In this document: piece by piece, positions 2,333-38,922 of the stretch
Numbering within the stretch: the first letter of the stretch is position 1
Layout of the letters: every line of letters begins with the position of its first letter
Virus record (IMG/VR): IMGVR_UViG_3300025879_000003
Location: 1-38,922 of that record
Reading direction: 5' to 3' (one strand)
From: a virus
DNA: 38,922 nt
Notes under the pieces: model-generated
The model's database searches: none
The model's input: only the letters and a program-made list of their open reading frames with translations
Told to the model about the DNA's origin: nothing
Program-made: the position numbers and the translations under genes

Positions 2333-3286
2333 TTAGTGCCTCATGCCCCTCGTTGGGGAGAAGGTCTGATCATAAGCTGTGCGCTGATAGGAGCGCCAAG
2401 AAGCGCGCAGGTCACGCGCTGACCCTCCGCTCTTGGCTTGGTCAAGCTCACCATCATCAACCACGTTGTCACCATCGCGATCAATCGCCACCGAGCGCAG
2501 AGCTAAGTCCATGAGCTCCATACAGCGCTCACGCATAGCATTGGCAATATCGAGCTGACCCGCCATCTCATACACGCGCGCGGCGGTGCAATAGGCGTGA
2601 GCGTTGAGGAACACTGAAGGGTTGAACACCTCATCTTCAGTCAGTGACTCATCACGCAGATGATCGCGCACCACATGAGCCACCTCATCAAGCGCCGCCT
2701 TGATCTGAGGTGCGTAGCTCGTCTGTCTGCGTGGCACCATGTCAGCGAGCTGGGGAAAAGTATCAACAAGCCCATCGTGATCAAGCGAAGTGTTAAAAGG
2801 GCGAGGCGTGACCTTAACCAAGCCCTTCTCAATGCGGCTCTCTGTGCCTTGACCGAGGTCAACAATAAACTCTACCTGCCAAGGATAGTAGCCGCTCTCA
2901 TCTGTGATGATGCTTGGGATTGTGCATGAGTACATCGCAAAGACTAAGGACGCGCTTGTGGTTGTGTCCACCTCGCGTGGTAGAGGCTCAGCCAAGATCG
3001 CAGTCGTGCCGACCATACGCACCACACTCACAGGATAGATCATGTCTCCCTCAGTGATGAGGTAAGCCTTGCTCTGGTCAGCTTGGAGAGCTGAGGCTTG
3101 GTTGTCTATTGTGAGGGTGCGTCTATCGTTAGCCACTGCACTAACTGAGGCGCTCGCCCGCGTGGCGTTCATGGTCACGCTGTGACCTGTGCCGTTACGA
3201 TAAGCCTTAAAGGTTGGAGCTGCGCTAAGAGGCCCAGGGGCGATCCACTCAAAGAGGTATGACTGACCTGTGACTGCTTTGATCAT
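2333..3286 (-). CDS. Head-tail connector/adaptor candidate with an EF-hand-like loop
   Basis: A 317-residue protein. The N-terminal half (to about 150) is beta-rich; the C-terminal half is helical (about 195-265). A textbook EF-hand-type calcium loop starts at D269, with D269, D271, D273, D277 and E280 at loop positions 1, 3, 5, 9 and 12. The start ATG overlaps the stop of the MuF-like gene (TGATG) and follows an AGGAG. It sits between the minor head protein and the gpG-like neck protein, where adaptor proteins are encoded. Adaptor function is inferred from position; the calcium loop is seen directly. Confidence 0.45.
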   Translation of the reverse strand: MIKAVTGQSYLFEWIAPGPLSAAPTFKAYRNGTGHSVTMNATRASASVSAVANDRRTLTIDNQASALQADQSKAYLITEGDMIYPVSVVRMVGTTAILAEPLPREVDTTTSASLVFAMYSCTIPSIITDESGYYPWQVEFIVDLGQGTESRIEKGLVKVTPRPFNTSLDHDGLVDTFPQLADMVPRRQTSYAPQIKAALDEVAHVVRDHLRDESLTEDEVFNPSVFLNAHAYCTAARVYEMAGQLDIANAMRERCMELMDLALRSVAIDRDGDNVVDDGELDQAKSGGSARDLRASWRSYQRTAYDQTFSPTRGMRH

Positions 3287-4191
3287 CAGCGCGCTCCTGC
3301 GTTGGCTTTGGCTATATCTGAGGCTTTAGCCTTCTTCAGCTTTGCGGCAACCATAAAGCCCTCAGTGATAGGGCTCCATGAGTGTCGGCAGTTATACCCG
3401 CCTCCGCTTGTTTTGACAGGTAGACCCTGCCCATTAGATAGCGCTCGCATCTGCTTCTCATCGACCACCAAGTTGATCAGCGCGCGACAGAAGTCGCGTG
3501 TGATGCCATCGCGTGGCCCTGTGTAGAGATACAGATCAAGCCCAGCAGACTCAGCCACCACAGCTGTGATGTTGCGCCCATACTGAGAGAGCTTGGTTCT
3601 CACCTCGGTGAGCTGTCGGCCCTCGCTCTTTTCCAATCGTTGACTCAGCGCTGTCATGGCTTGATTGGTTGGAACACCAACCACCATAGCCTCAAGCGCC
3701 TCCCTCACACTCTTGAGGGTATCGGGCAAGATCACATCTTGAAAGACTGCATCAGCCGAAGATATAGCGAGCGCGTCTATCTGCTCTTGCACTGAGTCGG
3801 TCTTTAACCCTTCCACCACCTGAGAGATGGATGAGAGGGCAGCTTCTGCAATTCTCTCTTGCTGAGCGATGAAGTCATCAACAGCAAGGCCCAACCCACC
3901 TCTCAGCACAAAGTCTAAGAGGCGATCACGAGGGAGGGCTAGAAGGGTCTGAGGGTCTGCAAGATCGAGCGCGGCTTGGAGAGTCTTAAGCATCTCCGAG
4001 CGCCCTCTCTTGAGAGCCTTGAGCATATCGGCCTCAGCTTTCACCTCGGCCTTTAGCTCCTTGACCTTTGCTCTAGTCAGTCCTGCGGTCGGCCCACTAG
4101 CCTGCTTACTGAGATCATCGATGGCCTTTTGATCAGCATCGATGCGCTCAGCTAACAGGGTTGTGTGAGGTCGACCACAAGAGCAGAGCAT
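3286..4191 (-). CDS. Minor head protein, MuF / SPP1 gp7-like
   Basis: A protein of about 301 residues if it starts at the ATG one base after the capsid gene stop; the open frame runs 50 codons further into the capsid gene but has no good start there. The long N-terminal part is helical and charged. The C-terminal 60 residues carry the pattern RDFCRAL...GGGYNCRHSWSPI, which matches the Cys/His C-terminal region of Phage_Mu_F/SPP1 gp7 minor head proteins. These sit at the portal vertex inside the head. The gene lies downstream of the capsid gene instead of beside the portal, a less common order. The N-terminus MLCSCG is unusually Cys-rich. Confidence 0.65.
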   Translation of the reverse strand: MLCSCGRPHTTLLAERIDADQKAIDDLSKQASGPTAGLTRAKVKELKAEVKAEADMLKALKRGRSEMLKTLQAALDLADPQTLLALPRDRLLDFVLRGGLGLAVDDFIAQQERIAEAALSSISQVVEGLKTDSVQEQIDALAISSADAVFQDVILPDTLKSVREALEAMVVGVPTNQAMTALSQRLEKSEGRQLTEVRTKLSQYGRNITAVVAESAGLDLYLYTGPRDGITRDFCRALINLVVDEKQMRALSNGQGLPVKTSGGGYNCRHSWSPITEGFMVAAKLKKAKASDIAKANAGAR

Positions 4192-4192
4192 C

Positions 4193-5194
4193 TTAGAGGC
4201 AGTCGGTGAGCACGAAGCCGAGGTCAGCGTCAATCGCCTGGAAGATGTGGCTCTCCTCAGCGTAGACATGGCGGCGGGTGCGGTCGAGGCTGTCGTACTG
4301 ACCTGCAACCATGCCACCAAACTCGAAGTTGAGCGCGGCAACAGGCATGGCCTTCACGCCACCGCTCTTTTGAACGATAGCGTCAGAGCCGTGAAGGAGG
4401 CCCATGAAGATGGTGTCAGCAGTCCAGATGTAGCCCTCAGAGCTAGAAGCACCAGGCACAGCAAGGTCTTGACGAGCCTCACCCACCATGATGTTGGGGA
4501 TGCCGAGGATGTCACGAAGAACAGCCTTAACAGCCTCATCGCTGAGGATGCGGTTGCCTGCGGCGATACCTGCGGAGCTGTCACCTACATAACCACGGAT
4601 CTCAGGGTTGCGAGCGAGGGCGCGGAACACCTCACGACCGAGAACCATTGAGTCAGGGTTGATGCCGTGAGCGTTAGCAAAGAGGGTGTCTTTGAGCTCA
4701 TGGAGGTAGGTGAGAGGCTCAGCGCCTGAAGCGTTGAACTTACCACCGAACTGAGCAGTCGCAGTCGCAGTGTTGAAGTTAGAGCCGTCAAAGAGAAGAT
4801 CAGCAGCGCGCTTCTCCTTAGCGAGCTTCATCACGCGAGCAACCTTCTTAGCGATGCGCGCCTCCTCAGAACCTGGGTACTGAGAGTCAATGATGTCCTC
4901 CATCGCGATGGAGTCTGCTGCGCTGTAGATCTTGCTCTTGAAGGTGGTAGAGCTACGATCAAAGCCACCGATGTTGGTACGAGATGCACCGGGTGCGCGC
5001 TCAAGGTCGAGGCCTGCGCCTGCGCCCATGAAGTTGCGGGTCTCCTCAAGGAGGAGGGTGCCTGAGCGCTCAGGAGTCTTGATAGACTCAAAAAGCTGAT
5101 CAGCGATGAGCTGACTATCACTAGGAACAGCCTCAACGACAAGTGAGCTTAAAATCTCGTCAACAGGATGCAGGTTGCTGTATGAGCTAGCCAT
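4193..5194 (-). CDS. Major capsid protein (HK97 fold)
   Basis: A 333-residue protein in the capsid position, right after the protease/scaffold and cement genes. Features typical of HK97-fold capsids: a helical N-terminal arm (residues 8-40), an LLLEETRNF segment, an E-loop-like stretch around 65-90, and a C-terminal domain with an MPVAALNFEFGG strand near 290. AAAGAGG lies 6-7 bases before the ATG, one of the strongest Shine-Dalgarno sites in the window, as expected for the most abundant virion protein. There is no delta domain within this protein; scaffolding is supplied by the nested product of the upstream gene. Confidence 0.85.
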   Translation of the reverse strand: MASSYSNLHPVDEILSSLVVEAVPSDSQLIADQLFESIKTPERSGTLLLEETRNFMGAGAGLDLERAPGASRTNIGGFDRSSTTFKSKIYSAADSIAMEDIIDSQYPGSEEARIAKKVARVMKLAKEKRAADLLFDGSNFNTATATAQFGGKFNASGAEPLTYLHELKDTLFANAHGINPDSMVLGREVFRALARNPEIRGYVGDSSAGIAAGNRILSDEAVKAVLRDILGIPNIMVGEARQDLAVPGASSSEGYIWTADTIFMGLLHGSDAIVQKSGGVKAMPVAALNFEFGGMVAGQYDSLDRTRRHVYAEESHIFQAIDADLGFVLTDCL

Positions 5195-13478: not shown

Positions 13479-14153
13479 ATGATTGACAATAAAATAAAAG
13501 TAGGCGAGGGCAGTGTTGCGCTCGTTGATGTGATGGGCTCAGCGTTGAGCGTGGTCAATGCTGCGCGAGTATCGATGGGCAAGCGCTCCGAGAGCTTTGA
13601 TGCGCGTGACGCCAAGCTGATCAAATATCTTTGGGAGCATGGTCACACCTCGCCCTTTCGTCATGTGCACCTTCAGTTTCACATCAAAGCGCCCATCTTT
13701 GTTTTGCGCCAATGGATGAAGCACCAGGTGGGCTGCGCGTGGAATGAGATCAGCGGTCGATATGTTGAGCTTGATGAGAGCTTTTGGAGTCCTCACTTGT
13801 GGCGTGAGCAGAGCGCGAGCGTGAAACAGGGAAGCGGTGGAGCTCTTGAGCAGAGCGGTCAGATTGATGCTCACTTTGTGTATGTCGAGGCGATCAACGC
13901 CGCTGTCGCCACTTATCAGCGCTTGCTCCAGATGGGAGTCTGCAAAGAGCAGGCGCGCGCTGTGCTCCCTGTTGCCACCATGAGCGAGTGTTATTGGACT
14001 TGCTCGCTTCATGCGCTCATTCACTTCTTACGCCAGCGCCTTGATGGTCATGCTCAGCAGGAGATCAGAGAGTACGCTCAAGCGGTGAGCGAACTTGCCG
14101 AGGGCGTTGAGGGCTTGAGCTTCATCTTGGGGACTTGCCTTGATCGATTATGA
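13479..14153 (+). CDS. thyX: Flavin-dependent thymidylate synthase
   Basis: A 224-residue ThyX, which makes dTMP from dUMP using methylene-tetrahydrofolate, FAD and NADPH. Visible family features: NAARVSMGK near 28-35, HGHTSPFRH at 54-62, FHIKAPIFVLRQW at 67-79, NEISGRY at 89-95, then RAVLPV, and HFLRQRLDGHAQQEIREYA near the end. The classic RHR-x7/8-S signature appears here as KHQ-x8-S (residues 81-92), with both arginines replaced. The gene starts the plus-strand block, with AGG at 7 bases before the ATG. The dCMP deaminase that supplies dUMP follows. Confidence 0.92.
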   Translation: MIDNKIKVGEGSVALVDVMGSALSVVNAARVSMGKRSESFDARDAKLIKYLWEHGHTSPFRHVHLQFHIKAPIFVLRQWMKHQVGCAWNEISGRYVELDESFWSPHLWREQSASVKQGSGGALEQSGQIDAHFVYVEAINAAVATYQRLLQMGVCKEQARAVLPVATMSECYWTCSLHALIHFLRQRLDGHAQQEIREYAQAVSELAEGVEGLSFILGTCLDRL

Positions 14154-14219: not shown

Positions 14220-14702
14220 ATGAGGGCGCACTGGGTGAAGCATTGGATGCGTCACGCTGAGCTGATCGCTGAGATGAGCCCTTGCCCCCGAGGGCAGGTT
14301 GGGGCGTTTATCGTTGACGAGCGAAACAACCCAATCAGCGCAGGCTTCAACGGCCCACCGAGAGGAGCCTGCGGTGATCTGTGTGGTGGTGAGGTGTGCG
14401 ACAGAACAGCGCGCGCCATACCATCAGGCACATCAACGGAGATAGGCTGTCACCACGCAGAGCAGAACGCCTTGATGAACGCACTTCACAAAGGCGTGAG
14501 TGTGGCGGGTTGCACTTTGGTGGTGACTACGCCGCCCTGCTTGGGCTGTGCTCGCCTCATACATCACGCAGGCATTGAGCGCGTGGTGATCGGTGGGCGC
14601 TCGTATGACTCACAGGGAGCTGATTACCTTGAGAGGTTTATCGCTTTACGTCAGGGTGTCTCTTGTAGCGTGAGCGAGCAGTCTCAGGATTACAGTTCAT
14701 GA
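14220..14702 (+). CDS. Deoxycytidylate (dCMP) deaminase
   Basis: A 160-residue zinc-dependent deaminase that turns dCMP into dUMP, the substrate of the thyX product encoded just upstream. The zinc site is visible: His79-Ala-Glu81 (CHHAEQNAL) and Cys107-x2-Cys110 (TPPCLGCARLIHHAGI). CPRGQVGAFIV near 22-32 and GFNGPPRGA at 42-50 are typical of phage and T4-like dCMP deaminases. The insert with extra cysteines (CGDLCGGEVC, 51-60) is also common in the family. The start has GAGG 7 bases before the ATG. The 3' end overlaps the convergent helix-turn-helix gene by 65 bases. Confidence 0.92.
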   Translation: MRAHWVKHWMRHAELIAEMSPCPRGQVGAFIVDERNNPISAGFNGPPRGACGDLCGGEVCDRTARAIPSGTSTEIGCHHAEQNALMNALHKGVSVAGCTLVVTTPPCLGCARLIHHAGIERVVIGGRSYDSQGADYLERFIALRQGVSCSVSEQSQDYSS

Positions 14703-18616: not shown

Positions 18617-18729
18617 GACATCAGCAGGTAGAGCACCCCACCTGCGATCACCACAAGCACCCAATCGCCCAGCTCCTCAACAATAGGATCGAGGGCGAGC
18701 AAGCATAAGATCAGAGCGATATAGAGCAT
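18613..18729 (-). CDS. 38-residue hydrophobic peptide
   Basis: ATG at 18729 to TAG at 18613-18615, just under the usual gene-size cutoff. It starts 19 bases inside the end of the nrdJ gene, with GGGGGG about 4 bases upstream. It has two hydrophobic stretches (MLYIALILCLLALDP, and WVLVVIAGGVLYLLMS) separated by an acidic turn (IVEELGD), so it may form a membrane hairpin. It ends exactly against the stop of the convergent RecT-like gene. Possible roles include a small lysis or membrane-stress factor. It fills the otherwise empty gap at the convergence point. Confidence 0.5.
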   Translation of the reverse strand: MLYIALILCLLALDPIVEELGDWVLVVIAGGVLYLLMS

Positions 18730-20714
18730 TGACCCCCCGAACAAGCGGGCTCAAGCTGAGCATCAAAATAATCGCTCTTGATGTTGCTGAGGTCAACGCC
18801 CGACCAATCGAGTGAGGCGAGCTTAAGCCAAAGCTCCTCAGCGGGTGCGCCCTCCTCAACGGTCTGATAAGGCGCTTGATCATAGGCGCTATCACCGAAC
18901 CAACCGAGGAGCGCCACGCCGCGCAGCTTGTCTCGGTTCTCATAGATGAAGGTGGCAACATCTCCCCACTCGTCATCTTTCACTGTGCATGTGTTGGAGA
19001 CGTTGTGAGTGAGGCCCTCAACGCGAGTAGGCTCAGAGCCCGGTGCCACCCAGTGCTGATAGACGAGCTTGACGCGAGTGAGGTGAGCGAGCGCGCTGTC
19101 AGTCTCTCGCGTGAGTGAGCCCTCGGGCGCAGCGCAAGCGAAAGCTACCACGCCTGTGTGCTCATCGAGGTCGGTGAGAGCATCGGGTACATGAGCCTCG
19201 AGCACAGACCATACAGGGTTGACCTTAGCCACCCTCATGCGCCTGATGTAGCGCTGAGCATGGAAAGGGTGAACGCCTGCGCTAGTACCTGCGATGGTGG
19301 AGGTGTTGCCCGATGGCTTGATTGTGGTCACGCGCGAGGCAGTCTTGATGCCGATCTTAGCGGCGGTATGTTGATTGACCTCAACGCAGAGGCGCGCGCC
19401 CTCCTCCAAGACCTCTGGGTCAAAGAGTAGATCGGGAGCTGCACACATGCCTGTAATGCTCACACCGATGAGCGCCTCCTGCTCCAAGATCATCTTGGTG
19501 GTGCGGGTGAGGTAGCCTTGATTGGTGTAACCCGCTTGGAGGGTGCCGATGTGAGCCGCCGCACAACAAGCCTCAAAGAAGTCCTCCTTGCTCTTGATGA
19601 GAGCGCCGTTGATCTCGGTGAGGTTGCACACAGCCCAACCACTTTGGAACAGATAGCCCTTGCTCTCAAGCGCCTCACGCTTACGCAGCATGTCGAGCGT
19701 GATCTCTTTGATTTGCTGACCATGAGGCGTGGTGATGGTGTAAGGGAATAGACCAATCTCCGCGCATGGGTTAGTGCCATGATGAGGATCAGCGAAGAAC
19801 GCCACCCCAGGCTCACCCCACGCCTTAGCCATCTCCACCACCTCATCAACTACTTGGCGCCCCACATCGAGCCCCACCCCTGCGCTGATGTTGGCGTATG
19901 CGCGTTGTGGGTTATGCTTCCACCAATCGCCCACCTTAGCTTTCATCATGAGCTCATCAGTCTCGTCAAAGATAGCGATGCTTGCGCTACGCCTCACGCC
20001 ACCACTGAGCACAGCCTCGGAGAGGAACATCACAATGTCGAAGGCATCAACCGAGCGCAGGCGCGCTTGACCATCAGCGATGCACCGATCAAGGAGCGCT
20101 CTGATCTTCTCAAGCGCAGTCTCAAGAGGCCCACTACCTGGAGCTTTCCCACCGCTTGAGATGTCTGCGCCCTTTGGCCTGATCGATGAGTAATCAAAAC
20201 GGATATGGCGGTAGTCCTCGTAATACCCTCGATGAAGATAGCTATCGATGAGGCTCTGAGCTGCGCGCGCCCACCCCTCAATGCTGTCTGGGATAAGCAC
20301 CTCATGCACCAAGCGGCGCTCAGCCTCTTTGGGTGTGAGGAGGCGAGGAAGGCGAGCGATGTCAGCGCCCCTCACTGAGAAGCCTGTGCCACAGCCACTG
20401 AGGAGAAGCCAGAACGCCTCAGAGAAGAAGCGGGAGCGATCACAGGGCGAGTAGGTGCAGTTGTAAATCCTCATGTTATTGCGCTCGATGGGAGCCCCAC
20501 CAAACTGAGTAGAGCGCTGAGAGGGGAACACGCGCTTCTCTCTGACGAGCTTGAAGGCGCGCTGTGTCTCACCGACCACTTGAGGGAAGCGTTTGAGGTG
20601 CATGGCCTCAACACGATTGACAGCATGAGCCCAAGTCTCACGACCCTCGCCGCCAGGTAAGGGTCGGGCATATTGAGCGGCGAAAGCCACCTCTCCAAGG
20701 ATATGATTTTGCAT
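18711..20714 (-). CDS. nrdJ: Adenosylcobalamin-dependent ribonucleotide reductase (class II)
   Basis: About 667 residues from ATG 20714 (GGAG 7 bases before); ATG 20741 is in frame but its site is too close. It resembles the monomeric Lactobacillus leichmannii-type ribonucleoside-triphosphate reductase. Key residues (short-form numbering): Cys86 in RIYNCTYSPC; the radical-site motif NPCAEIGL with Cys317 and Glu319; Cys363 in AVCNLTEI as redox partner of Cys86; and the C-terminal CSGGQC (Cys658/Cys663), which re-reduces the active site. It needs vitamin B12 from the host and works without oxygen. It sits at the end of the late block, not with thyX. It is somewhat shorter than the L. leichmannii enzyme (739). 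Confidence 0.93.
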   Translation of the reverse strand: MQNHILGEVAFAAQYARPLPGGEGRETWAHAVNRVEAMHLKRFPQVVGETQRAFKLVREKRVFPSQRSTQFGGAPIERNNMRIYNCTYSPCDRSRFFSEAFWLLLSGCGTGFSVRGADIARLPRLLTPKEAERRLVHEVLIPDSIEGWARAAQSLIDSYLHRGYYEDYRHIRFDYSSIRPKGADISSGGKAPGSGPLETALEKIRALLDRCIADGQARLRSVDAFDIVMFLSEAVLSGGVRRSASIAIFDETDELMMKAKVGDWWKHNPQRAYANISAGVGLDVGRQVVDEVVEMAKAWGEPGVAFFADPHHGTNPCAEIGLFPYTITTPHGQQIKEITLDMLRKREALESKGYLFQSGWAVCNLTEINGALIKSKEDFFEACCAAAHIGTLQAGYTNQGYLTRTTKMILEQEALIGVSITGMCAAPDLLFDPEVLEEGARLCVEVNQHTAAKIGIKTASRVTTIKPSGNTSTIAGTSAGVHPFHAQRYIRRMRVAKVNPVWSVLEAHVPDALTDLDEHTGVVAFACAAPEGSLTRETDSALAHLTRVKLVYQHWVAPGSEPTRVEGLTHNVSNTCTVKDDEWGDVATFIYENRDKLRGVALLGWFGDSAYDQAPYQTVEEGAPAEELWLKLASLDWSGVDLSNIKSDYFDAQLEPACSGGQCSISL

Positions 20715-20779
20715 GACAGGTCTCCGAGAGGCGAGCGTCATGCTCCCCTCTAAGATGGGGTTAAGTTAGGGTGAAGCGC

Positions 20780-23120: not shown

Positions 23121-26100
23121 TCAGATCACATACCAAGATGTGCCATCACTGACAATCGTAGCCGAGGCGTTTTGAAAGCCTAAGACCAAGCCTGAGACTC
23201 CATCAATAGTGTCGTTAATTGTGATCTCATTAGCGCTTAGGTTTTTGATGTTGTATTTATAACCACTACCAGAAGCGCTCGCTGTGGGAAGCGACACAGT
23301 GCAGTTCACACTCGGCGTGAGCAGGTAAATCTCCTCAATGCCCTCATGTGTGGTGATCGCGTAGGTTGAGCCAGGTGAGGCGCTCGTGACATTGGGCGCA
23401 GGAGGTGAGAAGGTCTTAGGCTCCCAACGGCTGTTCGTATTGACCCACTGCAAAACCTGATTGTCTGTGGGCGCGCTGGGATAAGCCACATCAGCGAATG
23501 TGTCGAGGTCGAGCGCAGCGAGGTTGCTAGGCACGATGGCGCGATCAGTCGCAGTAGCCGCTTGAGCCTCTGCATCGGTGGCGAGCTCCACGAGGCCAAG
23601 CGTTGTCTCGTCTGCCACAGGAGCAGGAGGAGGGCCTGCCTTAAAGGTCGATGATACGCCGTCGAAGAGGAGGATCTGACCATCGGTCGGTGCCACGGTG
23701 AGGTCAACATCATCAAGGCCATTGAGCCCATCAGCTGCGTTCACTTTCTCGCTGAGACGAGTGTCGATGCCCGCGAGGTGCGAGTCGAGGTCACTCGCGG
23801 CTGCGGTGTAGTCGCTGGCTGTGTGCGCGGTGTCGATGTGCTCACCGCCAAGCGTGAGCGCTCCATCGGTAGGCGTGATCGTATTGACGCTGTTCACCGC
23901 CAAGCCGACCTCGGTGTCGAGCCCTGCCAGGTGTGAGTCAAGGTCAGCGGCGCTCGCTGTGTAGTTCACTGCGGTGTGCGCTGTCTCGATGTCAGCGCCA
24001 CCTAAGACCACAGCGCCATCGGTGGGTGTGAGCGTGTTGACTGTCTTAACTGCCTCACCGTCAAGCGTCGTGAGCGCCGTGTCGAGCGCGCCGAGCTCGT
24101 CGTCGATACCGCCGAGGTGATGGATGACCTTAGTGCCATCGACAGTCGCACCGCGAGTCTCGTCGTAGTTGGTCGCGCTGAAGCTCAGTGAGAGGTCGCC
24201 CAAGTCGCCTGCGTAGAGCTCTTGCTTTGTGGCGTCGTACACAGGGAGCTGACCGTCAGTCGTGAAGGAGCGCGTGTTGAGCTCGATCGACGATGAGAAG
24301 TAGCACCCCCACGCCGGCTGATAGTCCGTCCCACCTTGCGAGTAGTTGAAGCCGAACAGATCGACGGTGGCCTTTGACTCGACGGTGACTTGGCCGTTCA
24401 GCGTGATGTTTTGGCCGACGAGCAGGTGAGCGTTGGTGTCGGCTTGATCGACTTGGATCACGAGCTCACCGAGACCCCAGTTCGTGACGCGGATGTACTC
24501 GCCGTTGTTCGTCACGCTTGGGAGCGTCATCGTCTTGGTCGAGCCTGTCGCCGTACCGATGATGTAATGCTTACCACTCTCAAGGGTCAGCGCGTCGGCG
24601 TCGGTGATGAACGAAGCGCTGTTGATGAACGACGTTGGGGCGTTGCTCAGATCAGCGTAGTCGCCGCTCGTCGCGACCGTCGCAAGGTCGCTTGACAGGA
24701 CGATCTCCGTTGAGTCGGCTGTGAGAGCCGTCGCGCCACCCCCTGCGACGAGGCGACCGCTTGTGCCGTCAATCGAGACGTCGAGCTGACCTGCGCCGAC
24801 CTTGAGCGCGTTGAGATAAGCGTCTTTGGCGCGAGCGCTCGCTGAGCCGATGTCGCGTGTGCTGTTGCCGTCTGGCAAGAACGCTCCGCTCGTCGCGTTG
24901 AGCGACCACTGACCAGCCGCGAAGCCTGCCGAGCCGTCGCTCACTTGGATGACCCCCTCCGCACCTTGCGCCGTTGTGCTCAACGCACTCAGCTCGCTCG
25001 CTACGAAGGCCGTGGTCGCGATCTGCGTTGTGTTCGTGCCTTGTGAGGCTGTTGGCGCTGTCGGCGTACCTGTCAGAGCAGGTGAGGCGATGTTCGCTTT
25101 GAGGGCGAGACCAGAGGCCACAAAAGCGGTGGTCGCGATCTGCGTTGTGTTCGTACCAAGTGAAGCGGTCGGCGCTGTCGGTGTGCCTGTCAGAGCAGGT
25201 GAGGCGATGTTCGCTTTGAGGGCGAGCTCAGTATCAAGCGCCTCATCCGCCTCTTTGAGCGACGTCGCGGTGTCAAGGTAGTTGGTCGCGCCGTTGGCGA
25301 GATACGAGCCATCTTCCTCCAGACCGGCGCCAGTGATGATCGACGCGCTGACAAGCGACTTGCCTTGTAGGCTCGTGTCGATCCCTGCGAGGTGAGAGTC
25401 GAGGTCAGCCGCGCTCGCGGTGTAGCCGACCGCCGTGTGCGCTGTGTCGATGTCTGCACCACCAAGCGCCACATCACCCCCAACAGGCGAGACGCCGTTC
25501 ACTGAGCTCACGCTCGTCGTGCCGAGAGGTGACACCTCAAAGCGCCCATTTGTGGCGGAGTACACAAGCGCGTCACCGTCTGCCAAGCCCGTGAGGTCAA
25601 CGTCACTCATTTGAGCGAGGGAGTCGATCTTGCGTGGGTAGAACACATAGCGGTTCAGTGACCCGCCTACAGTGTGACGATCCATCGCGAAGTAGAGCGT
25701 GGTGCGAGGAGGCACAGTGATGGATGTGATCAGCGCGTCATACTCTGTGGCGGGGTCGCTCTCTAGCTCGCCACCGAAGTACACCTGATAATCTACACCA
25801 TCAATGTTCGCTGTCTGCACACCGAGAGCGATTGTGACATCGTTCGCTGAACGGTTACTCACCGCAAAACCGTTAGCAGCGTTCAACAGTTCCTCCGCGT
25901 CTGTCGCGTCAGGAAGGCTGATTGTGAGCGCGCTTGACCCCATAGGGATCACATACATAGCGTCTGCGTAGTCCGTGCCCACTTGAGACGTGTTGATTGA
26001 GCGCAAAACAAACTCTGCGCTGTGCTTTTGGAGGTTCGTGAACACGTTAGCCGCGAGCACCTCGTCAGCGTTTCGCAGCGATGTAGCCGTGCTGAGTAGG

Positions 26101-28772
26101 TCACCATCAACAGACGGTGCAACGTAGGAGCCATCATCCTCCAAGCCCGCGCCCGTCTGTGTCGCGTTGATCTCCGACTGGTGAGCGGCGAGCGAGGTGG
26201 TCACAGAGCCAAACTGTGTGTCGATCCCTGCGAGGTGTGAGTCGAGGTCAGCGGCGCTTGCGGTGTAGCTCACTGCAGTGTGCGCTGTCTCGATGTCTGC
26301 ACCGCCCAACGTAAGCGCTCCGTCGGTGGGGGTGAGCGTGTTGACGCTGTTCACCGCGAGGCCAAGCTCGGTGTCGATCCCTGCGAGGTGTGAGTCGAGA
26401 TCAGCGGCGCTTGCGGTGTAGCTCACTGCAGTGTGCGCTGTCTCGATGTCCGCGCCACCCAGCGTGATGTTTCCGTCTACGGCGGCGATGTTATTAACCG
26501 TCGCTGTCTCAAGTGTGCCGAGCTTGGTGTCGATCCCTGCGAGGTGAGCTTCGACGTCGGCGCTCGCGCTCGTGTAGTTTGTTGGTGTCGCGACTACGCT
26601 CGCGTCGCTCGCCGCTCCACTTGTTGCGATGTCGGCAAGGTCGGCGCTGTTCGCTTTGTCGGCGAGTCGGCTGTCGATCCCGGCGAGGTGAGCCTCAACG
26701 TCAGCGGTCGCGGCGCTGTACTCGGTGGGCGTGGCTGTGACGCTCGCGTCGCTCGCCGTTCCACTTGTCGCGATGTCGGCAAGATCAGCTGTGTTCGCTT
26801 TGTCGGCGAGTCGCGTATCAATACCTGCGAGGTGCGAGTCGAGGTCAGCCGCGCTCGCTGTGTAGTCGCTTGCGGTGTGCGCTGTCTCGATGTCTGCACC
26901 GCCCAACGTAAGCGCCCCATCGGTGGGTGTGAGCGTGTTGACGCTGTTGACCGCCAAGCCGACCTCGGTGTCGATGCCTGCGAGGTGTGAGTCAAGGTCA
27001 GCCGCCGCCGCTGTGTAGTTTACTGCGGTGTGCGCGGAGTCGATGTCTGCCGCCCCCACAGTCACATCACCAGAGACAGGTGAGATGCCGTTGACTGAGG
27101 CGACGTTGTTCGTGCTGAAGTTATCGACGAGGTCGCGTGTCTCTTTGAGCTTCGCGTCAAGCGCCTCATCTGCTCCCTTGAGCGTTGAGACGGCGCCGAT
27201 GTAGTTAGTCGCGCCGTTGGCGACGTATGAGCCATCAGTCTCAAGCCCTGCACCGCTCTGTGTAGCGTCGAGCTCGGTCTGGAGGCCGTCGATCTCGCCC
27301 TCTGCGGTCGTGAGGCGACCATCGAGCGCCGTGATGTTGCCCTCGTTCGCCGTCACACGCCCATCAAGCGAGCTGATGTCGCCGTCGTTGCTCGTGATCT
27401 GCGTCTGCAAGTTGCCGAGCTCGGTGTCAACACCGCTAAGGTGTGAGTCGAGATCAGCCGCGCTTGCGGTGTAGTTTGAGGCGGTGTGCGCTGTGTCGAT
27501 GTCTGCGCCGCCCACAGTCACGTCGCCAGAGACAGGTGAGACGCCGTTGACCGTCGCGACGCTGTTGGCGCCTAGATTATCGACGATGTCGCGTGTCTCT
27601 TTGAGCTTCTCGTCGAGAAGCGTATCAGCGTCGGCAAGGTTGGTCGCGCTCGCGATGTAGTTTGACGAGCCGTCCACGATGTACGCGCCACCGCTTGTCA
27701 GTCCTGCGCCGCTCTGTGTGGTGTTGACCTCGAACTGAAGGCTCGCGACGCCGTCCGCGTTCAGCTTCACTTGGGCGTCGAGCAACGTATCGGCACCACG
27801 AAGGCTCGTCGCACTCGCGATGTAGTTTGCCGAGGGGGAGTTGATGTACTGCCCACCCGCCGCAAGACCTGCACCGCTCTGTGTAGCGTCGAGCTCGGCT
27901 TGGATGTCGTCGAGCTCGCCCTCGGCGGTCGTGAGACGGCTGTTGAGCGAGCTCAAGCTGTCTCGGTTGACCTTCACTTGATCGTCGAGCAGAGAGTCAG
28001 CCTGCTTGAGCGTTGTCGCGGTGCTGATGTAGGTCGCGGTAGGGTCTGGCGTATAAGAGCCGTTGCTGTTCAAGCCGGCGCTACTCTGTGTCGTCGCTTG
28101 CTCGGTTTGGAGCGTGCCGATCTCGCCCTCTGCGGTTGTGAGCCGGCCGTCGATCGAGCTGATGTCGCCTTCGTTCGTCGTGACACGAGCGGTGAGCGCG
28201 TCGTGGTCGGCTTGCGTGACAGCGTTGAGCACGTCGGCGACCGTCAGCTCACGATTGATCCACTCCTCACCTGTGCCGTCGTACACCAAGACCTGTCCGT
28301 TGGCTTCAGCGTTGATCGCAACGTCGAGCAGATCGGTCAGAACACTGATCGACTCGCTGTTGTCGACCTTCGTGATCGCGTCGTCGTAGTCAGTCTCACC
28401 GCTCGCGATGTCACGAGTCACAACGAGGTGATCGCCGACCGCCCACTCTTGGCCATAGAGCTCTTTTGTGACGTTGGTGTCGGTGGGGTTCAGCTTGACG
28501 TTGGTGACGACGTAATAGTCGCCAGCTTTCGTCGAGCCTGTGGTGAGGTCTGGGACGCCGATGCCGATGTCGTAGGCGCCCTTGAACTCCATGCCGCCTG
28601 TGAGCCCGGCGAGCTCCGCTTGCAGACCTGCCGGCGTGACGGCGATCAGCTCGCTTGTGCCCGCTTGCGCCTCTGCGATGGTGGCGAGGCGCACCTTGCC
28701 AGATGTGGTGGTTGTTGCATTGGGAACAGAGGCAGAGCCTCCGAGAGATGCAGGTCTGATCCTAATCGCCAT
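23121..28772 (-). CDS. Giant repetitive tail fibre
   Basis: A 1,883-residue fibre, by far the largest gene. The N-terminus has a GKVRLATIAEAQAGTSELIAVTP segment, and a related TLGLVELATDAEAQAA occurs near the C-terminus; both are typical of phage fibre collagen-like or trimer modules. A repeated unit of about 50 residues (GGADI-TAHTA--YTASAADLDSHLAGIDT) occurs eight times, with two diverged copies. Six 'TQSGAGL--GGSY--NYI--ATSL--AD-LLD' units and two copies of the 39-residue SPALTGTPTAPTA module, well known from other fibres, are interspersed. Coiled-coil heptads (LTTAEGEIGTLQTE) link them. It would form a long trimeric fibre that binds the host. The start has AAGGGG before ATG. Confidence 0.85.
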   Translation of the reverse strand: MAIRIRPASLGGSASVPNATTTTSGKVRLATIAEAQAGTSELIAVTPAGLQAELAGLTGGMEFKGAYDIGIGVPDLTTGSTKAGDYYVVTNVKLNPTDTNVTKELYGQEWAVGDHLVVTRDIASGETDYDDAITKVDNSESISVLTDLLDVAINAEANGQVLVYDGTGEEWINRELTVADVLNAVTQADHDALTARVTTNEGDISSIDGRLTTAEGEIGTLQTEQATTQSSAGLNSNGSYTPDPTATYISTATTLKQADSLLDDQVKVNRDSLSSLNSRLTTAEGELDDIQAELDATQSGAGLAAGGQYINSPSANYIASATSLRGADTLLDAQVKLNADGVASLQFEVNTTQSGAGLTSGGAYIVDGSSNYIASATNLADADTLLDEKLKETRDIVDNLGANSVATVNGVSPVSGDVTVGGADIDTAHTASNYTASAADLDSHLSGVDTELGNLQTQITSNDGDISSLDGRVTANEGNITALDGRLTTAEGEIDGLQTELDATQSGAGLETDGSYVANGATNYIGAVSTLKGADEALDAKLKETRDLVDNFSTNNVASVNGISPVSGDVTVGAADIDSAHTAVNYTAAAADLDSHLAGIDTEVGLAVNSVNTLTPTDGALTLGGADIETAHTASDYTASAADLDSHLAGIDTRLADKANTADLADIATSGTASDASVTATPTEYSAATADVEAHLAGIDSRLADKANSADLADIATSGAASDASVVATPTNYTSASADVEAHLAGIDTKLGTLETATVNNIAAVDGNITLGGADIETAHTAVSYTASAADLDSHLAGIDTELGLAVNSVNTLTPTDGALTLGGADIETAHTAVSYTASAADLDSHLAGIDTQFGSVTTSLAAHQSEINATQTGAGLEDDGSYVAPSVDGDLLSTATSLRNADEVLAANVFTNLQKHSAEFVLRSINTSQVGTDYADAMYVIPMGSSALTISLPDATDAEELLNAANGFAVSNRSANDVTIALGVQTANIDGVDYQVYFGGELESDPATEYDALITSITVPPRTTLYFAMDRHTVGGSLNRYVFYPRKIDSLAQMSDVDLTGLADGDALVYSATNGRFEVSPLGTTSVSSVNGVSPVGGDVALGGADIDTAHTAVGYTASAADLDSHLAGIDTSLQGKSLVSASIITGAGLEEDGSYLANGATNYLDTATSLKEADEALDTELALKANIASPALTGTPTAPTASLGTNTTQIATTAFVASGLALKANIASPALTGTPTAPTASQGTNTTQIATTAFVASELSALSTTAQGAEGVIQVSDGSAGFAAGQWSLNATSGAFLPDGNSTRDIGSASARAKDAYLNALKVGAGQLDVSIDGTSGRLVAGGGATALTADSTEIVLSSDLATVATSGDYADLSNAPTSFINSASFITDADALTLESGKHYIIGTATGSTKTMTLPSVTNNGEYIRVTNWGLGELVIQVDQADTNAHLLVGQNITLNGQVTVESKATVDLFGFNYSQGGTDYQPAWGCYFSSSIELNTRSFTTDGQLPVYDATKQELYAGDLGDLSLSFSATNYDETRGATVDGTKVIHHLGGIDDELGALDTALTTLDGEAVKTVNTLTPTDGAVVLGGADIETAHTAVNYTASAADLDSHLAGLDTEVGLAVNSVNTITPTDGALTLGGEHIDTAHTASDYTAAASDLDSHLAGIDTRLSEKVNAADGLNGLDDVDLTVAPTDGQILLFDGVSSTFKAGPPPAPVADETTLGLVELATDAEAQAATATDRAIVPSNLAALDLDTFADVAYPSAPTDNQVLQWVNTNSRWEPKTFSPPAPNVTSASPGSTYAITTHEGIEEIYLLTPSVNCTVSLPTASASGSGYKYNIKNLSANEITINDTIDGVSGLVLGFQNASATIVSDGTSWYVI
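24990..25223 (-). repeat. Two tandem 117-base (39-residue) fibre modules
   Basis: Positions 25223-25107 and 25106-24990 encode the same 39-residue module (ALKANIASPALTG..., ending ATTAFVASxL), nearly identical at DNA level. This module type is common in unrelated phage fibres and is thought to spread by recombination. Confidence 0.75.
26221..26526 (-). repeat. Tandem 153-base (51-residue) fibre repeat, recent duplication
   Basis: The stretch beginning at 26221 and the one beginning at 26374 align without gaps at an offset of 153 bases. They are almost identical over at least 75 bases, giving two nearly identical 51-residue units. Other copies of this unit in the same gene are more diverged. 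Confidence 0.65.
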
Positions 28773-35819: not shown

Positions 35820-37937
35820 TTAACCTCTGCTGTTCATGCGAACCGCCCCGCGCCTGGGTCGGTTGATTGTCTCGACCAATCGGTCAGCGAGCGCCTGCTC
35901 TGCTGCGCGCCTTGTGTCATAGATCACAGCGCCACCAAAGTTAATGTTAAAGGTCATGGCCTCGGTGCTCGCTTGCTCACGCTGAGGAGCAGGAGCGCTC
36001 AAGGGTGCTCCACTCGGTGAGGCTGAGGGTGTACCACCTCCACCACCACCACCTCCAAGAGCTGCACCACCTGCGCGAGCGAGCCCCGCAGCGCCTGCGA
36101 AGATACCCGCCGCAGTGAAGTGAGCCGAGGCTTGAGCAGGGTTGAGCAGAAGCGCGGCTGTACCATAAGCGGTCTCCATGATTGCCTTAACGCCAGCCTC
36201 ACGCGCGAGGGCGTTGAGCACGTTGGCGATAGAGTCCTCAAAGCTCTCACCGAACAAGGCAGCGCCCACCGCCGCCTCAGCAAACCCCTTCCCATAATCA
36301 GAGATCACGCCACGCGCTTGCTTCATAAGCGCTTGTGATGCCTTCTGCTCTATCCTCGCCCTCTCCATCCCATAGCGCCTTAAGAGCTCAGTCCTCACCT
36401 GCTCGTTGCCCTCTGCCATCTCGATCTCTCGATCATACTTGACCTTGAGCTGTGCAAGCTCGCGCTCAGTCTCACCCTGCACAAAGCCAGCATTAAACTC
36501 AGCAGTTGAGAAGGCAAATTCACGCGCCTTCTCAGCAGCCTGCCTCTCTGCCTCCTCACGCTTGGCTAGGTTGCTCAAGTAATCAGCTTGTTCAGCTTCT
36601 CTGATTTTCTTCAGCTCAATCTGATACTGAGTCTCAACAAGCGCGCGCTTGGTTGCATCATCCTTGGCAAGCTTAAGCCCTGTCTCATATCGCTCTCTCG
36701 CTAGAGACTCCTGCTGACTCAAGCCATCAAGTGTTAATCTGATCTGAGCTTGGCGCAGTTGACTCTCTAAGACCATCTGCTGTTTAGCTAAAGCCTCCTG
36801 CATCTTTCGCTCAGCTTCCTGTTGTCTGAGCTTCTGCTGATAGGCTTGGCGCCGCTTCTGCGCCTCGGCTTCAAAAATGCGAGCCTGGCGAGCTGCTACA
36901 ACTTCTTCATAAACTTTTTGCTCATTAAGGCGCTTAAGGGCCTCTGTTTGACTCTCTACCTGTTTGAGCAAGTCAGCTCTGCTAGCATCCTCCAATTTAA
37001 GCGCATCTTCTTTTGCATAAGCCTCAATAGACTCTTTGGCAGCCGCCCGCGCTGCTTGGTCTTTGACATCAATCTCAAGCCTCATCAGGTCGATAGCCTT
37101 AAGGCGCTCAAGGTTTTCCTTAACCTTCTGTTTGAGAGAGTCTGTGGTCAACTCCTCAAGTTTCTTCTCCTGCTCGCCAGCCTCTTTCAAGACCTCAAGA
37201 TTTGATCTAAGTATGGTCTCTAACTCTTTGAGCTTGGCGTTGTATTTAGATGAAGACTTCGCCTTAATGTACTCTACCTCTGCATATTGCAGATTTTGCA
37301 GCGCTCTTGTGTATTCATCAGTCCCCTTCTTACCCTCTGATACTAACTTATTAAGAGTTTGCTGAGCTTCTGTGTAATCCTTGAGAGGCCCCTCAACCAT
37401 AGCCGATAACTTATTCATGGCTCGCTCAGTGCTCTTTTCAAAAAGCTCTTTAGCCACTTGAGCCTTGATAGTTATCCTAAAGAAATCATCAAGGGCTTTC
37501 ACAGATGGAACAACACCATTCTCAGCCAAAGCCTCTAGCTTAGAGCTGAGATCTGCCACCGCTGCGGCGTATGCCTCTTGACGATCTTCTGCCTCTTGAG
37601 CAGCGCCGCTCAGTTGCCGATAACTTTCATACAGAACACCTAAAGCTCCAACAACCATGCCAATCGGCCCGATCAAGCCAATCAGACTACCTCCCCCTTT
37701 TGCCACGCTCGACACCGCCCCACCTAACTCTGCAAAAGCTTCTTTACTCTCACCGATGGCGTCTGAAACAGATGACAGCCCCTCTCCCAGTTCCTTATTT
37801 GTTTTACCAACGAGCTCTCCGACCCCTTTAAAACTCTCGCCTACTCCATCGGCGCCTTTTGTGACCATATCCAACCCTTTGAGGGTTTCCTGTTGGCCTT
37901 TGAGTTCGACTTCAATCTCAATGGTATTCTCAGCCAT
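35820..37937 (-). CDS. Tape measure protein
   Basis: A 705-residue protein. The N-terminal 80 residues are Gly/Lys/Glu-rich helices, then comes a hydrophobic segment (GGGSLIGLIGPIGMVVGALGVLY, about 84-106). Long coiled coils follow (about 110-520, many EAL/QAEA heptads). The C-terminal part has hydrophobic helices and a poly-Gly stretch before an Ala/Pro-rich linker. This is the plan of a tape measure, which sets tail length and helps DNA enter the cell. At roughly 0.15 nm per residue the tail would be about 105 nm. Its start overlaps the end of the chaperone extension by 8 bases. Confidence 0.88.
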   Translation of the reverse strand: MAENTIEIEVELKGQQETLKGLDMVTKGADGVGESFKGVGELVGKTNKELGEGLSSVSDAIGESKEAFAELGGAVSSVAKGGGSLIGLIGPIGMVVGALGVLYESYRQLSGAAQEAEDRQEAYAAAVADLSSKLEALAENGVVPSVKALDDFFRITIKAQVAKELFEKSTERAMNKLSAMVEGPLKDYTEAQQTLNKLVSEGKKGTDEYTRALQNLQYAEVEYIKAKSSSKYNAKLKELETILRSNLEVLKEAGEQEKKLEELTTDSLKQKVKENLERLKAIDLMRLEIDVKDQAARAAAKESIEAYAKEDALKLEDASRADLLKQVESQTEALKRLNEQKVYEEVVAARQARIFEAEAQKRRQAYQQKLRQQEAERKMQEALAKQQMVLESQLRQAQIRLTLDGLSQQESLARERYETGLKLAKDDATKRALVETQYQIELKKIREAEQADYLSNLAKREEAERQAAEKAREFAFSTAEFNAGFVQGETERELAQLKVKYDREIEMAEGNEQVRTELLRRYGMERARIEQKASQALMKQARGVISDYGKGFAEAAVGAALFGESFEDSIANVLNALAREAGVKAIMETAYGTAALLLNPAQASAHFTAAGIFAGAAGLARAGGAALGGGGGGGGTPSASPSGAPLSAPAPQREQASTEAMTFNINFGGAVIYDTRRAAEQALADRLVETINRPRRGAVRMNSRG

Positions 37938-38352
37938 TATTGGCCTCCATCATTTGCTCTTGGTGGCGCGCGATCATCTGCTCAGTGTTGGAGTGTAGCA
38001 CATCGAGCGCCTCCACGATTGCACATGTAGGGCGCGGAAATACAGACTCAATCGAGCCTAAGCCTTGCCTGTGTCGGTGATAAGCCGTTATCACCGAGGC
38101 GAGGCGATTGGCGTCAGCTATCGGGCAGTGCCTGATCTTCTGATCAGAGAAGGCCTCACCGCAGTTGGGCGCCACGCGATAGGCAGGCATAAACAAACCC
38201 TCATCATCACGCTGAGCCATAGGCAGACCAGGCTTAAAAGCACCGCCACAATTGCCACGTTGACGCCTGAGCGCAGGGTTGCCCCTGCACTGCTCACAGC
38301 TCCACGCGCGCCCCCCACTGCTCGTCAACCAAACAGAGGAGGCAAGTGCTAT
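37930..38352 (-). CDS. Frameshift extension of the tail assembly chaperone (T-like)
   Basis: A 140-codon frame reached from the upstream chaperone by a -1 shift at G_GGA_AAA. It has no independent start of value: the first candidate is TTG at 38328, with no ribosome site. It is open back through the end of the upstream gene. The fused product would be about 308 residues. The extension is Cys-rich (CEQC, NCGG, NCGE, HCP, TC). It ends overlapping the tape measure start by 8 bases. This is the lambda G/GT arrangement. The Cys cluster, possibly metal-binding, recalls the zinc-binding end of some chaperone extensions but is otherwise uncharacterised. Confidence 0.75.
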   Translation of the reverse strand: MALASSVWLTSSGGRAWSCEQCRGNPALRRQRGNCGGAFKPGLPMAQRDDEGLFMPAYRVAPNCGEAFSDQKIRHCPIADANRLASVITAYHRHRQGLGSIESVFPRPTCAIVEALDVLHSNTEQMIARHQEQMMEANNG

Positions 38353-38855
38353 TTTCCCCGCTGACCTAAGAGGCTCATGCGCTGGATATGCTGCACCAGC
38401 TCTGTGATGACTGCGAGGCGGTGCGCCTCTGGCTTGATCAGGCTGAGCTTACCCTTTGCAGGTTCACCATCAATCAAAGTTAGAGCCGCCTCAACCATCT
38501 CGACAAAGACCTTGTTGAGGTAGCTCTGATACATCGCTAAAGCCTCACGCTCATCTTCTGTGAGATTGTGATGCCAACGCGCCTTCTCACGCTGATCATC
38601 GGGCGCCTCAGTCCACAGCAAGCGCCCAAGCTCAGAGCGAACATAAGCACCCGCCTTAACCTCAGCGCTCTCACGCTCAGCAGGAGAGAGAGCCTTGAGG
38701 GTAAAGATGGTGGCGCCCTCATAGCTCTCAAGCTCATCAAGATCACCTGTGAGCATATAGGCCTTTACTTGATCGGGTGAGGCGATCACCGAAGAATCAC
38801 AAGTGACCACCACCTCAAGCGTCATATCAGCATCGGGCATAAATGAGAGCGCCAT
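38349..38855 (-). CDS. Tail assembly chaperone (G-like)
   Basis: A 168-residue acidic, helical protein between the tail tube candidate (across the circular join) and the tape measure, the fixed place of tail assembly chaperones. The stop (TAG) directly follows the slippery heptamer, as CGG GGA AAA TAG. Residues near 30-45 have VKAYMLTGDLDELESYEG. The longer frameshifted form is expected at low level, and both should coat the tape measure during tail assembly. The start ATG is 4 bases after the tube stop with a poor ribosome site, so translation is probably coupled. Confidence 0.75.
   Translation of the reverse strand: MALSFMPDADMTLEVVVTCDSSVIASPDQVKAYMLTGDLDELESYEGATIFTLKALSPAERESAEVKAGAYVRSELGRLLWTEAPDDQREKARWHHNLTEDEREALAMYQSYLNKVFVEMVEAALTLIDGEPAKGKLSLIKPEAHRLAVITELVQHIQRMSLLGQRGK
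38352..38358 (-). promoter_or_regulatory. -1 programmed frameshift slippery site
   Basis: On the minus strand the heptamer is G_GGA_AAA, with the zero-frame stop TAG directly behind it. After slippage the tRNAs can re-pair with GGG and AAA, and reading continues as ATA GCA CTT. GGGAAAG, a one-base variant, is the lambda G/T slippery site. Confidence 0.75.
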
Positions 38856-38922
38856 ATCTTTAAACCCCCAGAGCCAAACGGACAGGGCTGTTGCCTGCGC
38901 CGCTCTCGCTCACATCACCACC
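38796..38922. repeat. Terminal direct repeat, right copy (assembly overlap)
   Basis: Exact copy of bases 1-127. When the two copies are merged, the stop of the tail tube gene sits 4 bases before the start codon of the 168-residue chaperone gene. That gives one unbroken minus-strand operon across the join. Confidence 0.97.
38860..38922 (-). CDS. Duplicate 3' fragment of the tail tube gene
   Basis: This is the end of the gene found complete at 65-1357, present twice because of the 127-base contig overlap. Its stop is at 38860-38862. It should not be counted separately. Confidence 0.9.
   Translation of the reverse strand, partial: GGDVSESGAGNSPVRLALGV

Follow-up and report, generated by a model that had tools for sequence, protein, structure and literature searches.

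A probable lambda G/GT-type programmed −1 frameshift between two predicted tail assembly chaperone frames of an uncultured virus

The analysed window is the whole stretch of 38,922 nucleotides that forms positions 1 to 38,922 of IMG/VR record IMGVR_UViG_3300025879_000003, a 38.9 kb record of an uncultured virus, and all of the structural genes examined in it are located on the minus strand. An exact 127-bp terminal repeat (positions 1–127 are identical to 38796–38922) allows the record to be read as a circle, on which the stop codon of a 430-aa gene falls 4 nt before the start of a 168-aa gene, referred to here as G. Since 127 is also a common assembler word length, the repeat is more likely a sign that the assembly is circular than a terminal repeat of biological origin. 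The resulting gene order is the 430-aa gene, G, a second open frame (T) and a 705-aa tape-measure-like gene, which begins (ATG) within the last 8 nt of the T frame (Table 1).

The 168-codon ORF of the original prediction, with its end CGG GGA AAA TAG (preceding codon, CAG), was found to be real, and the heptamer G_GGA_AAA was located where expected, with the zero-frame stop right behind it. Counted from GGG, the −1 frame stays open for 142 codons, as far as position 37930. The predicted size of the fused product, about 308 residues, agrees with the value computed from the frames (168 + 140 = 308).

Table 1. Coordinates of the features of the G/T locus in the 38,922-nt window.
Feature	Position	Strand	Basis
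G-like gene, predicted tail assembly chaperone, 168 aa, standard translation	38349–38855	−	ORF, homologues, AlphaFold2 model
Slippery heptamer G_GGA_AAA (GGGAAAA), putative −1 shift site	38352–38358	−	Kept in relatives
Zero-frame stop TAG adjoining the heptamer	38349–38351	−	Sequence
−1 frame encoding T (140 residues following GK), five invariant Cys	37930–38358	−	
Hairpin, putative frameshift stimulator	38309–38344	−	Fold, shuffles, compensatory pairs
Tape-measure-like gene, 705 aa	35820–37937	−	ORF; weak PHROG 1538 match
430-aa gene, tail tube position	65–1357	−	ORF; identity from position

The assignment of the 705-aa gene as tape-measure-like is based on its length and on a weak profile match to PHROG 1538 (tail length tape measure; E-value, 0.005), whereas the 430-aa gene would be the tail tube gene judging from its position. 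A start comparable to that of the 705-aa gene was found 350–520 nt 3′ of the heptamer in 51 out of 99 loci, and a gene comparable to the 430-aa one upstream of G in 97 of the 99. The gene order is conserved and fits a G/GT locus, provided that the two flanking genes are those of the tube and the tape measure. Downstream of the tail genes, a 1883-aa gene (23121–28772, minus strand) is built from diverged direct repeats of ~115–300 nt that belong to several families, and looks like a gene for a modular tail fibre.

The heptamer is of the X_XXY_YYZ form and is located in frame shortly before the first gene ends, as in G/GT-type arrangements. GGGAAAA occurs four times in the whole window, while 1.9 occurrences are expected. 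The motif alone is therefore not rare, and it is conservation, not occurrence, that raises it above chance. Relatives were chosen by protein similarity, with no condition on the DNA heptamer. GGGAAAA was present in 80 out of 80 loci that were aligned where the T domain begins, in 43 out of 43 new loci fetched with the G domain, and in 80 out of 80 loci obtained with a query headed by one of the distant members; the three sets overlap partly. The relatives range in identity down to about 47% for G and about 50% for T. Where the heptamer could not be read in frame, the relative was either cut off before the site (L046) or locally disrupted (L045), and every relative that holds the site keeps both GGGAAAA and the open −1 frame, which was the check proposed along with the original prediction. 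In 13 other genes of the same genome, GGA accounts for 42 out of 602 Gly codons (7%) and AAA for 50 out of 196 Lys codons (26%), which gives a joint synonymous expectation of about 1.8%. Given that both are minority codons and yet the heptamer is invariant, protein constraint alone does not explain its conservation. None of these 13 genes is terminated by TAG. In a few relatives (L110, L128, L155, L167, L172 and L239), the adjacent TAG has changed to TCG, TTG or CAG, and a TAG follows two codons on, while the heptamer is unchanged.

The possibility that G and T are separate genes, with T starting by itself (at TTG 38328 or elsewhere) and coupled to the stop of G, was examined using 55 sequence clusters; these were gathered by heptamer search, and the tally is thus used to judge start codons and neighbouring stops but not heptamer conservation. 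According to the original prediction, the second frame is open from the heptamer onward and has no proper start. The first part holds; as to the second, the TTG at 38328 does exist in the window, but it lacks a ribosome site and is not kept in relatives. Four further sequences could be read in favour of an independent start, with an ATG (L114 and L115) or a TTG (L029 and L031) four codons into the −1 frame, preceded by the SD-like stretch GAGG, and in the L114/L115 subgroup (near 5001) a free T product might additionally start on its own. Conserved starts with a ribosome site, the finding named beforehand as contrary to a frameshift, are nevertheless not seen in the family: 41 of the 55 clusters have no ATG, GTG or TTG within the first ten −1 codons, and a start codon plus an SD-like stretch is found in the second frame of only three. 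In L002 and L036, the earliest possible start is at codon 85 or 99 of the −1 frame, yet conservation of T begins directly after GK and the heptamer. An independent start would, moreover, leave the invariant heptamer unexplained. On these start-codon tallies it was rejected, and we regard it as very unlikely. In 24 of the 55 clusters a −1-frame stop stands immediately 5′ of GGG, so that the T frame can be entered only within the heptamer.

The distribution of substitutions gives a similar picture: 59% of those 5′ of the site are on third positions of frame 0, and 62% of those 3′ of the site are on third positions of frame −1. The coding frame switches from 0 to −1 at the site. The −1 frame is thus open and under selection at the protein level, with no conserved start of its own.

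A further feature, which was absent from the original prediction, is a hairpin behind the heptamer. Its stem begins ~8 nt 3′ of the heptamer (at about position 9) in nearly all of the 60 distinct sequences. The hairpin of the window folds at −24.3 kcal/mol, and only one out of 300 synonymous shuffles folds as low; the effect is weaker in distant members, with a mean z of −2.3 for 25 related sequences. One consensus fold computed across all of the subgroups yielded no hairpin, as the subgroups do not share one pairing register; grouping of the sequences by register resolved this. When the sequences are divided into the two main register groups, 91% and 92% of the cells form pairs, as compared to 39–70% when the register is slid. 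Each group has 13 paired cells in which both bases are changed, while shuffling gives means of 3.3 and 3.5; these counts are taken from related sequences and are not to be read as probabilities. The stem pair GCCTCC/GGAGGC is replaced by GCCGCCGC/GCGGCGGC or by GCCTCTA/TAGAGGC, which is the pattern that would be expected from selection on pairing. Together with the adjacent stop, the hairpin suggests that the rate of frameshifting may be under selection. Scans of the region for Rfam families, promoters and terminators revealed nothing of note. A heptamer with a zero-frame stop right after it and an RNA structure downstream is also the layout of the Rous sarcoma virus gag-pol junction; the analogy is one of layout only, the virus, the genes and the heptamer being unrelated.

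Some recoding sites work by transcriptional slippage, and the AAAA contained in the site might suggest that the two frames are joined by the polymerase on its A run, not by the ribosome. A run of four A residues is short for polymerase slippage, however, and both the invariant GGG and a hairpin spaced for the ribosome match the requirements of a ribosomal −1 site, which makes slippage during transcription even less probable than an independent start of T. Although an indel error is conceivable in any single contig, the splitting of one ORF by sequencing error or gene decay is refuted by the relatives and has a negligible probability, the identical arrangement being found in many independent assemblies over a wide divergence, with both parts constrained at the protein level. 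The locus very probably undergoes programmed −1 frameshifting by the ribosome in the manner of lambda G/GT, with a putative GT fusion product, as originally proposed and as backed by the conservation of the heptamer, the open −1 frame and the lack of a conserved start.

Homologues of G were found in at least 200 uncultured viral contigs. Neither G nor the T domain gave a significant match to Pfam or PHROGs when 15 members of each were searched; as families of tail chaperones are highly diverse, the missing match is compatible with membership in them. The AlphaFold2 model of G (pLDDT, 84.5) was aligned to 391 chains of solved structures. The best alignment was obtained with 2ob9, the tail assembly chaperone of HK97 (Z, 6.2), followed by YqbN (3klu; Z, 5.7), a tail chaperone of the PBSX-like element, while unrelated entries reached at most 4.6. 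The two best structural alignments therefore both fall on HK97/PBSX-type chaperones, as compared to which G is longer (168 residues) and has a long C-terminal helix; sequence identity to both is 8–13%. No significant match was obtained by Foldseek with the G model (E-values above 0.01), but annotated tail assembly chaperones recur among the weak matches, and the best weak viral ones include two such chaperone products from Arthrobacter phage Molivia. The modelled likeness in fold (Z about 6, modest) would by itself be insufficient for homology, and it is in line with how the genes are ordered and with the frameshift.

In the T domain, Cys residues at positions 21, 24, 37, 78 and 112 are present in all of the 29 distinct members, and a Cys at position 66 in 24 of them. 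The alignment of 15 diverse members contains 43 invariant columns, and the structural model of the domain is poor (pLDDT, 55.8). Binding of zinc by the T domain is a guess. It is conceivable, if somewhat doubtful, that the family constitutes a distinct subtype, which would combine GGGAAAA, directly followed by UAG, and a covarying hairpin at ribosome distance with tuning to an unusual G:GT ratio and with a Cys-rich, possibly metal-binding T adaptor unlike the known T domains.

No match for G, T or the tape measure was detected in the cultured phage collection, and no relative of G or T was confirmed in 84,980 bacterial and archaeal genomes. The portal protein shares only about 27% identity with those of Gordonia, Arthrobacter and Mycobacterium phages. 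Elsewhere among the structural genes, the listed ORF at 3286–4341 (region 3286–5194, minus strand) overlaps the major capsid ORF (4193–5194) by ~150 nt in a different frame, and its true start is probably further downstream. The window also contains a gene for a 676-aa B12-dependent (class II) ribonucleotide reductase (18711–20741, minus strand; Pfam insertion domain match), and a 224-aa ORF (13479–14153, plus strand) that by eye resembles flavin-dependent thymidylate synthase ThyX and is adjoined by a deaminase-like ORF (14220–14702).

According to the proposed mechanism, most ribosomes would halt at TAG and yield the 168-aa G chaperone. In a minority of ribosomes, with tRNAs on GGA and AAA and with the hairpin ~8 nt ahead causing a delay, movement back by one base to GGG AAA would allow translation to continue through T, giving a GT fusion of 308 aa. 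If the analogy with lambda holds, G would coat the tape-measure protein, and tube subunits would be recruited through the T part of GT. The analysis itself establishes the anatomy of the sequence, its conservation, the change of coding frame and the covarying hairpin; that ribosomes slip, how often they do so, that the hairpin stimulates them and that the products act as chaperones is inferred.

In phage lambda, gpG and gpGT are likewise two chaperone products made from one start by a −1 shift, and their genes lie between those of the tube and the tape measure (PMC5009743). The ratio of G to GT in lambda is about 30:1, with T recruiting the tube protein to the tape measure, and G_GGA_AAG is named as a highly shift-prone heptamer (PMC5009743). 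In contrast to lambda, the heptamer of the present family is GGGAAAA, the zero-frame stop adjoins it in most members, and a conserved hairpin is located 3′ of it; G and T fall into no detectable sequence family of Pfam or PHROGs together with the known chaperones. For an HK97-related chaperone cluster, a shift of 6–7% was measured in a reporter (PMC3711429). Among actinobacteriophages, a −1 shift within GGGAAAA has been reported for the tail assembly chaperones of Microbacterium phage Bush (PMC11749239); the heptamers are identical, yet G and T described here have no sequence match in the cultured phage collection.

The frameshift mechanism is thus already known, and so is the same heptamer from phage Bush, whereas the protein family and its hairpin are new, as is the finding that some members have lost or shifted the adjacent stop. 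The analysis provides a name and a likely function for two protein families that have no match in the libraries searched, and the second of them would be missed by gene callers, since this half has no start codon. With its covarying hairpin, the family provides a naturally occurring set of stimulator variants behind an unchanging heptamer, which would help to measure the influence of structure on the G:GT ratio.
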